A program made the position numbers and the translations under genes. From assembly GCA_036946405.1 (NCBI GenBank), contig JAQIJC010000001.1, forward strand, positions 2,679,501 through 2,743,500: a DNA stretch of 64,000 nucleotides, in the 5' to 3' direction. Shown piece after piece: positions 37,967 through 42,397 of this stretch; positions within the stretch are counted from its first letter, which is position 1, and each line of letters begins with the position of its first letter. Source of the DNA: Sphingomonas phyllosphaerae. GTDB taxonomy: Bacteria; Pseudomonadota; Alphaproteobacteria; Sphingomonadales; Sphingomonadaceae. The notes under the pieces are model-generated. The model ran no database searches. It saw nothing but the letters and a program-made list of their open reading frames with translations, and had not been told where the DNA came from.

Positions 37967-38938
37967 TCAACTCAGTTGCGCGGCATCATCGCGGATTTTA
38001 GCGTTGGCGATGGTGATGAGTTTTCGCATGGCGGCGGTTAGGGCGACGATGGGTTTTTTGCCGCTGTCACGGAGGCGCTGGTAGAAGGCCTTGATGTCGG
38101 GCGCGAAGCGGACGGCGGAGAGGGCAGCCATGAAGGTGACGCGCCTGACCTCCGGGCGGCCGCCGCGGGTGCGGCGATAGCCATCGACGGTGCCGCTTTG
38201 GCGGGGATGGGGTGCAAGGCCGGCGAGGCTGGCGATCTGGCGCCGTCCGAGCGTGCCGAGTTCGGGCAGGAGGGCGATGAGCGCCGCGGCGGTGGTCGCG
38301 CCGATGCCGGGGATGGTGCGCAGGACGCTGGCGGTGCGGGCGAGTGATGCGCAGCCGGCGAGCAGCGCCTCGATCCGGGCCTCGAGCGCGGCGATGGCCT
38401 GGTCGTGCGCGGCGACCAGCGCGCGCAGCTCGGCGGCGACCGGGCCGGCGCCGGGGGCCTTGAGGCGGTTGGTGCACGCGGTGCGGGCACGGACGAGATC
38501 GCTGCGGGTGTTGACCAGCGTCGCGAGCTCCTGGCGGTGTTCATCGCGCGGGTGCCAGCGGTCGAGGCGCTCGTGGCGCTCCTGCCCGTAGCGCGCGAGC
38601 GCACGGGCATCGAGCGCATCGGTCTTGGCCAGCGTTCCCAGCGAGCGGATGAACGCCTTGACGCGGCGGGCATCGGCACGGTGGATGGCATGGCCGGCGC
38701 GTGACGCCGCCGCGAGCAGCGCGGCCTCGTAGCCGCCGGTCGCCTCGCAGACCAGCAGGCGCCCGGGCGGCAGCGCGGCGGCAAAGGCGTCGAGCGCAAG
38801 CGGCGTGTTGGCGATGGTGGTGGCGCGGCCGGTGACGCTGTCGAAGACGGCGATGCCGGCCTTGCCGACGTCGCAGCCGACGAACCCGGTCGGCGTGGTG
38901 GCGGCGGCGTCAGTGGCGGGGTTGGCGGAGCGGGTCAT
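37967..38938 (-). CDS. IS110 family DEDD/serine transposase
   Basis: About 323 residues from ATG 38938. The RuvC-like domain carries the DEDD acids in GFVGCDVGKAGIAVF, VCEATGGYEAALL and AKTDALDARALARYG. The C-terminal Tnp_20 domain has IPGIGATTAAALIALLPELG and the probable nucleophilic serine in PRQSGTVDGYRRTRGGRPE. Such enzymes recombine DNA under guidance of a bridge RNA made from the element. The frame is intact, so the copy may be active. Confidence 0.93.
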   Translation of the reverse strand: MTRSANPATDAAATTPTGFVGCDVGKAGIAVFDSVTGRATTIANTPLALDAFAAALPPGRLLVCEATGGYEAALLAAASRAGHAIHRADARRVKAFIRSLGTLAKTDALDARALARYGQERHERLDRWHPRDEHRQELATLVNTRSDLVRARTACTNRLKAPGAGPVAAELRALVAAHDQAIAALEARIEALLAGCASLARTASVLRTIPGIGATTAAALIALLPELGTLGRRQIASLAGLAPHPRQSGTVDGYRRTRGGRPEVRRVTFMAALSAVRFAPDIKAFYQRLRDSGKKPIVALTAAMRKLITIANAKIRDDAAQLS

Positions 38939-38944
38939 GACGGT

Positions 38945-39120
38945 TATCCTCGGCGATAGCCTGCGATTGTCTGCGGGCGTCGTCGAGCGGCCCCTGCAAC
39001 TCACCAGGCGTGACGGGAAGCGGGCAACCGACCGGGATGACGACGGGCGAAAAGCCCTATTGCGAGACGGCCCGGTTGCCCGCGCCCGGCATCAGGTGGC
39101 CACCTGATGCCGGGCATCCC
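38945..39120 (-). ncRNA. Candidate IS110 bridge RNA region
   Basis: Non-coding element end upstream of the transposase. CGGGCAACCG (39021-39030) pairs with CGGTTGCCCG (39073-39082), enclosing CCG/CGG and a GGGC-GAAAA-GCCC hairpin with internal loops. Next to it lies a perfect 32-bp palindrome at 39084-39115. In IS621 the bridge RNA lies in this position and carries target- and donor-binding loops. Boundaries and loop assignment are not determined. Confidence 0.55.
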
Positions 39121-39163: not shown

Positions 39164-39232
39164 ATTGCGAGCGTAGCGAAGCAATCCAGCGCCCAGCGCG
39201 CGACGCTCTGGATTGCTTCGCTACGCTCGCAA
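39164..39232. repeat. Family B repeat (copy 3)
   Basis: ATTGCGAGCGTAGCGAAGCA plus ATCCAG and its exact complement, separated by a variable centre of about 17 nt. The arms are perfect over 26 bp. It is 13 nt beyond the gcvPB stop, so it may end that operon. Confidence 0.85.
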
Positions 39233-39245
39233 TGACGATATCGAC

Positions 39246-41042
39246 CTACTCCGCCGCCTCGGCCTGCGCGACCGGCGGCTTCCACGTCAGCACCGGCTTG
39301 CGCGCCGCGAGCGTCTCGTCGAGGCGCGCGCGGGGGGCAAAGTGCGGGGCGGTCTTGAGCGACGGGTCGCCGGCCTTCGCCCGCTCCGCCACCGAGCGCA
39401 GCGCGCCGATGAACTGGTCGAGCGCGGCGCGGCTCTCGGTTTCGGTCGGCTCGATCAGCATCGCACCGTGAACGACCAGCGGGAAATACATGGTCATCGG
39501 GTGGAAGCCTTCGTCGATCAGCGCCTTGGCGGCGTCGATCGTCGAGAAGCCGGCGGCGAAGCCCTTATCCGAGAAGATCGCCTCGTGCATGCACGGCCCC
39601 GCCCCCGCGAACGGTGCGTCGAGCACATCCTCCAGCGAGCGCAGCACGTAATTGGCGTTGAGTACCGCATCCTCCGCGACCTGCTTCAACCCGTCCGCGC
39701 CGTGGCTGAGGATATAGGCGAGCGCGCGGGTGAACATGCCCATTTGGCCGTGGAACGCGACCATGCGGCCGAACGTGTCGGGATGGTCGTCGCCAGCGAG
39801 CATGTGGTCGCCGTGTCCCCCGGACACGGCTGAACCGTGCGGGGCACGGTTCACCACATGCTCTTCCTCGATCAGCTGGATGTGCCCGTCGGCCATCCGC
39901 GCGGTGAACGGCAGCGGGCCGAACGGCGCGAGCGCCTCCGAGAGCACCACCGGCCCCGAACCGGGCCCGCCGCCGCCGTGCGGGGTCGAGAAGGTCTTGT
40001 GGAGGTTGATGTGCATCGCATCGACGCCGAGGTCGCCGGGACGGACGCGCCCGACGATCGCGTTGAAGTTCGCGCCGTCACAATAGACGTAGCCGCCCGC
40101 TTGGTGGACCGCGTCGCTGATCTCCTTAAGATCACGCTCGAACAGCCCGCAGGTGTTCGGATTGGTGATCATCACCGCCGCGACGTCCGGCCCGAGCCGC
40201 GCCTTGAGCGCCGCGGTGTCGACGCGCCCGTCGGCGGTGGCGGGAATGTCCTCGACCGTGAAGCCCGCGAAGGCGGCGGTCGCCGGGTTGGTGCCGTGCG
40301 CGCTCTCGGGCACCAGCACGACCTTGCGGTGGCCCTCGCCACGCTTTTCCAGCGCCGCCTTGATGCACAGGATTCCGCACAGCTCGCCATGCGCGCCGGC
40401 CTTGGGGCTCATCGCGACGCCGTACATGCCGGTCAGCTTGATGAGCCACACCGCCAGCTCGTTGATGACGCCCAGCGCGCCCTGCACTGTGTCGACCGGC
40501 TGGAGCGGGTGGATGTCGGCGAAGCCCGGCATCCGCGCCACCTTCTCGTTCAAGCGCGGATTGTGCTTCATCGTGCACGAGCCGAGCGGGAACAGCCCGA
40601 GGTCGATCGCGTAATTCTGGCGGCTGAGCCGGGTGTAGTGGCGCACCGTCTCCTGCTCCGACAGGCCGGGCAGCCCGATCTCGCTCTTGCGCGTCAGGTC
40701 GCCGAGCCGGTCTAGCCCCCTCCCCTTTGGGGAGTTCCGGGTCGAATGTGCCCCCGGCACATTCTCAACATCGCGGGGCGATGTTGACCCGGAACTGGTT
40801 GGGTGAGGGGTCGAGGTCTCACCGAGACCAGCCTCTCGGTGAGACACCGACCCCTTACCCCGGCCCTCTTCCCAAAGGGGAGAGGGAGCATCGGCGAAGT
40901 CGACGCCGGTCGTCTCGGTCGAGCCGATCTCGAAAATCAGCGGCTCTTCGAGCATCAGTGCCTTGTTGCCGGTGAAGGTCGGTGCGGCGTTGCCGCCGGC
41001 GATCGGAGCGGTCGGCTTCCAGCCGCTTGCGTTGATGCTCAT
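39246..41042 (-). CDS. gcvPB: Glycine decarboxylase P-protein subunit 2, with two in-frame repeat insertions
   Basis: PLP subunit of the glycine cleavage system (598 aa; relatives are nearer 520). The PLP lysine is in [20 protein letters not shown]; other blocks are [17 protein letters not shown] and [20 protein letters not shown]. The ATG at 41042 overlaps the gcvPA stop as ATGA. Two segments look foreign: residues about 54-110, encoded by a family C repeat carrying element E1, and residues 394-415, encoded by element E2. Both keep the frame and contain no stop. The inserts are low-complexity (for example [17 protein letters not shown]). Whether the enzyme tolerates them is unknown. Confidence 0.94.
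39798..39863. repeat. Element E2: kissing-loop cloverleaf inserted in gcvPB
   Basis: 66 nt, exactly 22 codons. Outer stem GAGCATGTGGT / ACCACATGCTC (11 bp) encloses hairpin 1 (39810-39830, 8-bp stem, loop CCCCG) and hairpin 2 (39831-39853, 9-bp stem, loop CGGGG). The loops are fully complementary. Begins on a codon boundary and encodes E-H-V-V-N-R through D-H-M-L. Confidence 0.85.
40716..40886. repeat. Family C repeat inserted in gcvPB (copy 3)
   Basis: 171 nt, 57 codons. Carries the family C plan: left CCCCCTCCCC-TTT-GGGG, then (after E1) GGTTGGGTGAGGGG, a central hairpin GTCTCACCGAGA / TCTCGGTGAGAC, and right CCCTCTTCCC-AAA-GGGGAGAGGG. Read on the minus strand it stays open and adds a Ser/Gly/Pro-rich segment. 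Confidence 0.85.
40733..40796. repeat. Element E1: kissing-loop cloverleaf nested in the family C repeat
   Basis: 64 nt. Outer stem AGTTCCGGGTC / GACCCGGAACT (11 bp) encloses hairpin 1 (40744-40764, 8-bp stem, loop CCCCG) and hairpin 2 (40765-40787, 9-bp stem, loop CGGGG). The fold and loops match E2 exactly, while every stem differs in sequence. Confidence 0.85.
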
Positions 41043-42397
41043 GCCAGTGCCTCCTGAAGCGCGGTCGCCAGCGCCTCGATATCCTCGTCGGTCGCCGTCT
41101 CGGTGACGGCGACGATCAGCCCGTTCGCCAGCGCGTCCTCGCCCGGGTACAGCCGCCCGAGCGACACGCCCGCCAGCACGCCCTTGTCGGCGAGCGCGCG
41201 TACCACCGGCCGCGCCTCCTGCCCGATGTCGAGCGTGAATTCGTTGAAGAAGGTGTCGTTGACGACGCGCACGCCCGGCACCTTCGCCAGCCGATCGGCG
41301 GCACGGCACGCGCCCGCGTGGTTGAGCGCCGCGAGCCGCCGCAGCCCCGCCTCGCCCAGCAAGGTCATGTGGATCGAGAACGCCAGCGCACACAGCCCGG
41401 AATTGGTGCAGATGTTGCTGGTCGCCTTCTCGCGGCGGATATGCTGCTCGCGGGTGGAGAGCGTCAGCACGAAGCCGCGCCGCCCCTCGGCGTCGACGGT
41501 CTGCCCGCACAGCCGGCCCGGCATCTGGCGGACGTATTTCTCCTTGCAGCCAAACAGACCGACATAGGGTCCGCCGAACTGCAGCCCGACGCCGAGCGAC
41601 TGGCCCTCGCCGACGACAATGTCGGCGTCCATCTCGCCCGGCGAGCGGATCGCGCCGAGCGCGACCGGCTCGGTGACGACGGCGATCAGCAGCGCCTTTT
41701 TCGCATGGCAGGCATCGGCGAGCGGGGTCAGGTCGGCGATGCGGCCGAGGATGTCGGGATATTGGACGACGACGCACGAGGTGTCGTCGTCGATCTTCGC
41801 GATCAGCGCGTCGAGATCGGTGTCGGCACCCAGCGTCGGCAGCGCGGTGTCGAGCACATCGCCGGTGTACTTGGCCATCGTCTTCGCGACCGAGACGTAA
41901 TGCGGGTGCAGCCCGCCCGACAGGATCGCCTTGCCGCGCCGCGTGATCCGCCGCGCCATCCCGATCGCTTCCCAGCACGCGGTCGACCCGTCGTACATGC
42001 TGGCGTTCGCGACATCGGTGCCGAGCAAGGCGGCGACCTGCGTCTGAAACTCGAACAGCATCTGGAGCGTGCCCTGCGCGATCTCCGGCTGGTACGGCGT
42101 ATAGGCGGTCAGGAATTCGCCGCGTTGGATCAGGTGATCGACGCTGGCGGGGACGTGGTGGCGATACGCACCCGCGCCGAGGAAAAACGGCACCTCGCCC
42201 GCGACGGTGTTCTTGCGGGCGAGCGCGGCCATGTGGCGCTCGACCGCCAGCTCGCTGGCGTGATTGGGGAGGTCGTGGATCGGGCCGTCGAGCCGCGCGG
42301 CGTCGGGCACGTCGGCGAAGAGTTCGTCGATCGACGATGCGCCGATGACGGCCAGCATGTCCTGGCGGTCGGTGGGGGTAAGGGGCAGGTAGCGCAT
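41039..42397 (-). CDS. gcvPA: Glycine decarboxylase P-protein subunit 1
   Basis: 452 residues, normal for the split alphaproteobacterial P-protein; it pairs with GcvPB to decarboxylate glycine and load the aminomethyl group onto GcvH. Start ATG at 42397 ([15 protein letters not shown]), typical of the family; the longer frame reads through a repeat. Conserved blocks: [50 protein letters not shown]. Coupled to gcvPB by ATGA; separated from gcvH by family C copy 4. Confidence 0.96.

Follow-up and report, generated by a model that had tools for sequence, protein, structure and literature searches.

A dispersed family of 64-bp cloverleaf elements in the Sphingomonadaceae, probably recognised and copied as folded DNA

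The gcvPB gene of Sphingomonas phyllosphaerae, located in a 64,000-nucleotide stretch of contig JAQIJC010000001.1 (the whole of which is termed the window), carries two cloverleaf-shaped palindromic structures, E1 and E2, which share one architecture and differ in the sequence of their stems. This raises the question of whether they are coincidental, act as a structured RNA or are copies of a mobile DNA element, and how pairing could be kept while the paired letters changed. The answer favoured here, with a probability of roughly 60%, is that they belong to a family of 64-bp mobile DNA elements of the Sphingomonadaceae which is recognised and copied as a folded DNA cloverleaf, the mobility being suggested by comparison of sequences. 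The features of the locus are as follows.

39246 to 41036 (upper end approximate), minus strand: gcvPB (glycine dehydrogenase subunit 2) with both insertions, inside the open reading frame (ORF) 39246-41978; Pfam.
39799 to 39862, plus strand: E2, a canonical 64-bp cloverleaf forming an in-frame insertion in gcvPB; covariance model R1 (82.1 bits, E 2.2e-17) and empty sites.
39799 to 39808, plus strand: left arm of the E2 outer stem, pairing with 39853-39862; sequence and fold.
39810 to 39830, plus strand: E2 hairpin 1, 8-bp stem plus C-G closing pair, triloop CCC; fold and closing-pair changes in the family.
39832 to 39852, plus strand: E2 hairpin 2, 8-bp stem plus C-G closing pair, triloop GGG; fold, with no compensated closing-pair change in the family.
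39853 to 39862, plus strand: right arm of the E2 outer stem; sequence and fold.
About 40714 to 40889, no strand assigned: composite CCCTCTCCCC-type palindromic repeat hosting E1, itself inserted in frame in gcvPB; G355 and G400 lack it, and G316 has it without E1.
40733 to 40796, plus strand: E1, a canonical 64-bp cloverleaf nested in the composite palindromic repeat inside gcvPB; covariance model R1 (81.9 bits, E 2.4e-17), with G316 having the composite without E1.
40744 to 40764, plus strand: E1 hairpin 1, triloop CCC; fold.
40766 to 40786, plus strand: E1 hairpin 2, triloop GGG; fold.

The gcvPB locus of this genome matches the Pfam families PF21478 (GcvP2_C) and PF02347 (GDC-P). Both cloverleaves lie where the first-pass annotation had placed them and fold as it described, with fold energies of -41.8 kcal/mol for E1 (z -6.6) and -48.8 kcal/mol for E2 (z -7.9) and none of 200 shuffles of either being equally stable. 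Its account of two hairpins within an outer stem stands, while the stem lengths are revised: the outer stem of E1 is 10 bp in the register of the family rather than 11 bp, and each hairpin comprises an 8-bp stem and a C-G pair that had been counted as loop. E2 has one extra outer pair, 39798/39863, beyond the shared 64-nt unit. The spaced loop motif CCCCG-N17-CGGGG, found twice in the window against 0.29 expected and reaching two in 3 of 100 shuffles, is weak evidence when taken alone. A pairing-based scan for an outer stem enclosing two hairpins, with the loops left free, identified only E1 and E2 as cloverleaves in the 64 kb, and a similar scan of 900 kb sampled at regular spacing from three genomes returned four, three of which are family members. 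The composite repeat at 40714-40889 includes a GTCTCACCGAGA hairpin and is in frame in gcvPB, and repeats with C-rich and G-rich arms like those of the CCCTCTCCCC composite are frequent hosts of cloverleaves. Directly adjoining gcvPB is an ORF (37967-39004, minus strand) whose sequence resembles, in its motif, an IS110-type (DEDD) transposase; a stretch resembling its far end also occurs beside a one-armed hairpin elsewhere in the genome (C1:477508, L261).

E1 and E2 belong to a family dispersed in the Sphingomonadaceae. Its 64-bp unit reads AG-N5-GGT, C, N8-CCCCG-N8', T, N8-CGGGG-N8', ACC-N5'-CT, in which the N arms are complementary, and is laid out as an outer stem of 10 bp, a C, hairpin 1 (tip C-CCC-G), a T and hairpin 2 (tip C-GGG-G). 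The AG and CT ends are frequent and not fixed, the left edge reading G (49%), G (71%), A (77%) and G (83%), where pairing of the outer stem starts with the A and the last G. Three exact copies of the inner pattern are present in the genome itself, the additional one at C1:67334, and 83 matches are spread over 29 of the 298 family genomes, this one included, against five for a reversed-pattern control. At least 120 stretches match in a pattern scan of named genomes, and among the matches listed almost all titles are of Sphingomonadales (Sphingomonas, Sphingopyxis, Sphingobium, Novosphingobium and Allosphingosinicella), the exceptions being one Streptomyces, one labelled Bacillus and one labelled only bacterium. 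The stretch titled Bacillus sp. 2B10 (L100) has its element in a host repeat of sphingomonad type, and its label likely reflects mislabelling or contamination. The pattern is also contained in 19 IMG/VR stretches (L161-L179). Both hairpin stems have at least seven of eight pairs in 153 of the 161 distinct flanked contexts.

A covariance model built from 80 diverse copies, a search that the first-pass annotation had proposed, yielded many further copies. It locates 10 full-length places in the genome, two of which share identical surroundings near the two contig ends and are possibly one copy assembled twice, as well as two one-armed places, one of them weak (C1:477508, E 0.114). The existence of this family, with its 10 full-length places and 83 against five pattern matches, removes coincidence as an explanation for E1 and E2. 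Matches occur in 30 of the 41 genomes of the genus, this one among them, and are absent from the other 11; the counts, in which some copies are matched on both strands, go up to 36 (G336). In the class only three of 289 genomes match, namely this genome, another of its genus and, weakly, G498 (31.8 bits). The copies are thus dispersed and patchy across genomes. Copies with altered tips exist among the covariance-model matches, single-armed forms comprise two found by pattern in addition to C1:477508, and no three-armed forms occur among the collected loci. Full elements number 218 against four unpaired halves, none of the latter an evident autonomous element, a weak search for an autonomous partner in the form of separated halves because the loci were picked for full elements. 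Several cloverleaves, one in a shifted register, lie close together at L235 in G204.

At E2, at E1 and in several unrelated host repeats, 64 bp take the place of what is mostly a 4-bp stretch in relatives or in empty repeats, a net gain of 60 bp. The E2 site in gcvPB is empty in G355, G400 and G390, with a net difference of 60 bp; in G355 and G400, whose flanking GcvPB residues are 98% and 100% identical to those of this genome, it reads GAGGAAGAG-AC-nGC, while this genome and G316 have 60 bp more than these two, in frame. Close relatives thus possess gcvPB without the palindrome, the comparison of empty sites having been suggested at first pass. The site is filled in two of the 27 genus loci read, out of 30 best matches to the filled protein (L303-L305 were missed by the motif search, as was L209 in a separate locus reading, which is thus not included). 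An Allosphingosinicella gcvPB carries an element at the site of E2 (L067, 6116-6179) with three compensated differences, where nearly all other genomes read are empty; this common element may represent a shared old insertion, a transfer or repeated insertion at one site. At the E1 site, G316 has the composite with the 4-mer AGAG (CTCT on the gene strand) in place of the 64 bp, and gcvPB of G355 and G400 lacks the composite altogether.

Among the host repeats, host A (cttcagg, GGAG or 64 bp, gggttgggg) provides 16 empty and 16 filled sites, and its eight empty sites in the genome itself comprise seven with GGAG and one with GGGAG. The host ccggnacgg..ggggacc has six empty sites of 4 nt and one of 5 nt against six filled, gggg..gg (AGAG or 64 bp) has four empty and two filled, cccgcgaaRg (4 or 64 bp, the 4-mer being CGGG in the rows shown) has 14 empty and four filled with a scatter of other lengths, and gttcgtgctg..tgtcgaag (4 or 64 bp) has seven empty and one filled plus one of 15. 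Two further host types show 10 or 70 (eight and nine sites) and 2 or 62 (seven and six sites), with a few other lengths, and two of the nine host patterns gave no empty/filled pair (pattern 6 one filled site only, pattern 9 nothing). A scan with looser flank matching, in which gaps of 0-30 were allowed, returned 278 empty sites with a gap of exactly 4 in 162, 3 in 49, 5 in 44 and another length in 23, such that 255 lie between 3 and 5; part of the gap-3 and gap-5 counts is slippage in G-runs, and a flank match with zero mismatches (L272/L249) gives a gap of 5. Canonical and reverse orientation both occur within one host type. Some of the filled host repeats may descend by copying from a single filled composite, in which case there were fewer independent events than filled sites; loci near contig ends are without flanks.

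A net gain of 60 bp keeps the reading frame. One copy lies in glyS (glycyl-tRNA synthetase beta) of this genome, and glyS of two other genomes has one in the same region; these cloverleaves (L255 1501-1564, at G000:C1:1930909, L276 and L130) are in frame at about the same position with different stems. Other copies are found in ORFs with RNB, 2-oxoacid dehydrogenase acyltransferase and ligase D domains. A codon-position filter, used because ORF length is uninformative in this GC-rich DNA, retained 26 of 258 loci, and of 10 of these 26 ORFs run against Pfam two were without a family. One reading frame gives similar peptides, including SGSTAPRAVEVVPGAQPTRN, in gcvPB (E1) and in glyS of two other genomes.

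The stems differ between copies and remain paired, which bears out the first-pass view of a repeated element in gcvPB kept more in structure than in sequence. Standard pairs fill 98.5% of the 2080 pair cells in an alignment of 80 sequences, against 64.7% on average when the 3' letters are shuffled and at most 39.6% for slid structures; two-sided changes account for 673 cells, one-sided changes for 13 and unpaired cells for 32. Such conservation and pairing figures are inflated, because most loci were fetched by exact loop and junction patterns and the counting scans need 20 of 26 pairs. A scan of 2.65 Mb, in which at least 20 of 26 pairs and at least six of eight junction bases were required and the loops left free, gave 236 distinct elements, after 19 of 255 rows with fewer than six of eight junction bases were dropped (17 of the 19 had the family loops). 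In these elements 212 mismatches occur in 6136 cells, of which 67 are G·T and 68 A·C, and a stricter list of 217 distinct elements gives 65 of each. On its own strand an RNA would accept G·U but not A·C, so the equal counts favour neither strand, and the strand symmetry of the mismatches therefore argues for a structure maintained in the DNA rather than in a single RNA strand. Comparison of 181 distinct inner sequences, from a list for which one intact triloop was required, gives 70 pairs that lie one compensated base pair apart and 29 that lie one stem base apart. Where the flanks of two copies can be aligned on either side, L276 and L130 are separated by three compensated pairs without a single change, L083 and L113 by five and none, and E2 and the Allosphingosinicella copy by three and one, while the other differing flank-aligned pairs show 4 to 14 compensated and 0 to 3 single changes, apart from four pairs that differ by at most one base. 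Same-locus pairs were not counted as orthologues in this comparison, and the flanks of some aligned pairs may themselves be repeats. Mirror-register rows were dropped before the 217-element, flank-pair and 181-sequence counts, and L014 was left out of alignment A1.

The tips behave differently from the stems. The five-base loops, exactly complementary between the two hairpins, had been read at first pass as suggesting a kissing complex and as the only conserved bases. The outer bases of the hairpin 1 loop are CG in 229 of the 236 elements, TA in six and CA in one, and since they mostly change together to T-A they form a ninth stem pair; the closing pair of hairpin 2 is changed in three of 236, in no case with compensation. 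The triloops CCC and GGG occur together in 228 of the 236 elements, and the remaining eight have one changed triloop, none both, while the stems are nearly always compensated. The uncompensated triloop mutants and the ninth pair of hairpin 1 remove the support for a five-base kissing contact, and kissing loops were ruled out on these grounds. The triloops are indeed conserved, and so are the junction letters GGTC / T / ACC, which the claim of loop-only conservation had left aside and which are near constant at 232 to 236 of 236 per position, a figure inflated by the fetch patterns and the junction condition. Taken as a whole, the earlier interpretation is partly supported.

Comparison of copies and sites shows, at the level of sequence, dispersal, mostly 4-to-64 replacement in both orientations and in unrelated contexts, and stems that vary with strand-symmetric Watson-Crick compensation. 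The most likely explanation is a short mobile DNA hairpin that would be inserted as a folded strand or by template switching and whose arms would be re-matched by template-switch copying. The element may enter as a folded single strand, or a nascent strand may switch onto and copy an extruded hairpin; joining into a gap of about 4 nt would cost one strand 4 nt and gain it 64, and differences between the arms would then be erased as one arm is copied from the other by template switching. Stem sequences would drift in this way with near-perfect pairing, only the junction and the tips, the likely points of recognition, being held constant. At C6:10467 (L260 1501-1543, G000:C6:10467-10509) a perfect palindrome with a CCC loop and arms of 39 bp reads as a mirroring of the left half of a one-armed element together with its host repeat, which is consistent with arm copying and would also arise by recombination between two inverted copies. 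The strand bias that lagging-strand entry might leave is not significant (mean skew -0.0074, t-test p 0.068, Wilcoxon p 0.149, n=234), and simple lagging-strand entry is accordingly disfavoured. Template switching explains the identity of the arms and not the constancy of the junction and tips. A more specific proposal, put forward tentatively and with less than even confidence, is that this is a transposable element with little conserved sequence; to spread, its folded single strand would be patched into a gap of roughly 4 nt, its identity would reside in its shape, its junction contacts and its two triloop tips, and each round of copying could re-template one arm while the stem letters drift.

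The pairing of the stems might instead be kept by selection on DNA structure, with a protein having to bind the folded cloverleaf if the element is to persist or move, rather than by template-switch repair. Near-constant junction bases are as expected for a fold recognised by a protein, and the inner stems have fewer mismatches than the outer stem (77 against 131 cells in the 217-element list). Genic copies without evident use nonetheless compensate, as E2 and its Allosphingosinicella counterpart do with their three pairs and one single change, and the palindrome at C6:10467 resembles a product of arm copying; selection of this kind is considered unlikely as the main cause, though it is the strongest of the rivals. 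A structured RNA or kissing-loop RNA element, by comparison, is very improbable and already largely refuted. The predicted RNA folds are stable and some copies lie in genes and are presumably transcribed, yet the near-equal G·T and A·C mismatches, by which an RNA element, including the RNA version of the kissing idea, was ruled out, the absence of compensation in all eight triloop mutants and the occurrence of both orientations in host repeats speak against it. Rfam gave nine matches listed in 39200-41300, each below the gathering score of its family, and the microRNA matches were set aside as below threshold.

The mobilising enzyme is probably not an IS200/RAYT Y1 transposase. That the cloverleaf is a non-autonomous MITE or REP moved by an IS200/IS605-type (Y1/RAYT) enzyme would agree with its hairpins, its dispersal and its insertion into REP-like repeats, with the link between GTAG REPs and RAYTs in excerpts of the literature (PMC3733652) and with the fact that, of the three genomes where Y1 is matched, two (G091 and G329) contain copies. 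The third such genome, G303, is without copies, however, and PF01797 is found in only three of the 41 genus genomes, being absent from the cloverleaf-bearing genome studied here and from G336 with its 36 matches, a distribution by which RAYT was ruled out as the mover. Furthermore, no GTAG tag is present in the 64-column consensus, where the A and G of the left edge are paired, and we know of no Y1 element that deletes 4 bp; this origin is accordingly given little credence. Only marginally more credible, and still improbable, is a DDE-type transposase as yet unknown, whose target duplication was later erased by arm homogenisation. The arithmetic fits, as a 56-bp element and a 4-bp duplication give the net 60 bp, and arm homogenisation is plausible. 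Filled sites nevertheless mostly end in AG...CT whatever the 4-bp target (GGAG, AGAG, CGGG, AGCT or AGAC), and no direct repeat of the target was seen in the rows shown.

The folded DNA cloverleaf favoured here bears on how mobile elements and structures are recognised. Mobile elements are usually found and classified by sequence, and a search of that kind would miss the cloverleaf in part, since its fold is better preserved than its letters. Covariation usually counts as proof of RNA structure, and its strand-symmetric form here provides a test, G·T against A·C, that separates conservation at the DNA level from that at the RNA level. Insertion that usually exchanges 4 bp for 64 has a defined outcome and lends itself to an assay. 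The in-frame copies in gcvPB and glyS represent a route by which selfish DNA could add peptides to important proteins, and if a folded-strand transposable element is indeed involved, its usual net gain of 60 bp leaves the frame unshifted, so that a cloverleaf can live inside essential genes.

No description of a 64-bp cloverleaf element was found in the literature searched (chiefly open-access, titles and abstract openings), in line with the first-pass failure to recognise a named repeat family. The closest systems, as compared by description, are the Rickettsia palindromic elements (RPEs), the CGTC and GTAG REPs and the mitochondrial double-hairpin elements, each of which shares part of the cloverleaf and lacks some feature as far as tested. 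RPEs are likewise short palindromic DNAs found in frame in conserved genes, with a similar peptide in different genes, and in-frame insertion in conserved protein genes is observed here twice in gcvPB and in glyS of three genomes. According to the excerpt of PMC10969869, RPEs measure about 150 bp and fall into families, every one of them with a conserved peptide, whereas most letters of the cloverleaf are free and it has 64 bp, two arms and defined tips, the RPEs being compared by description only. The cloverleaf also inserts into CCCCGCGAAGGCGGGG repeats. These repeats presumably are CGTC REPs. GTAG and CGTC REPs are small dispersed palindromes that also occur in sphingomonads, some of them in genes including those of tRNA synthetases, and CGTC REPs have no dedicated transposase, according to excerpts of PMC3733652. 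The cloverleaf resembles these and REPINs in being a small dispersed palindrome with some copies inside genes, and differs in forming one closed cloverleaf with an outer stem and free stem letters; no CGTC tag occurs in its consensus or at the edges of it. Nor does it show the conserved terminal inverted repeat of MITEs, as 118 different outer 7-mers occur among the 217 distinct elements, with AG/CT ends frequent and GGT/ACC fixed, or, in the rows shown, their target-site duplication, 4 bp being replaced instead. The mitochondrial double-hairpin and repetitive hairpin-forming elements (DHE, RHE) are single or double hairpins that look mobile, occur inside genes as well and show complementary substitutions from copy to copy (PMC2800124, in excerpt), and the cloverleaf shares with them two adjacent hairpins with such substitutions; they are, however, mitochondrial, and that excerpt describes neither an outer stem with fixed junction and tips nor a 4-bp replacement rule. 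Quasipalindrome template switching makes the arms of inverted repeats identical, as reported in excerpts of PMC8604942, PMC7202029 and PMC6357072. It is a mutational process and not an element, and explains arm identity, not dispersal. The attC sites of integrons are recombination sites at cassette ends, used by IntI. They are recognised as folded DNA hairpins (PMC11641012, in excerpt), while in the cloverleaf the fold itself is the dispersed unit, inserted with replacement of 4 bp.
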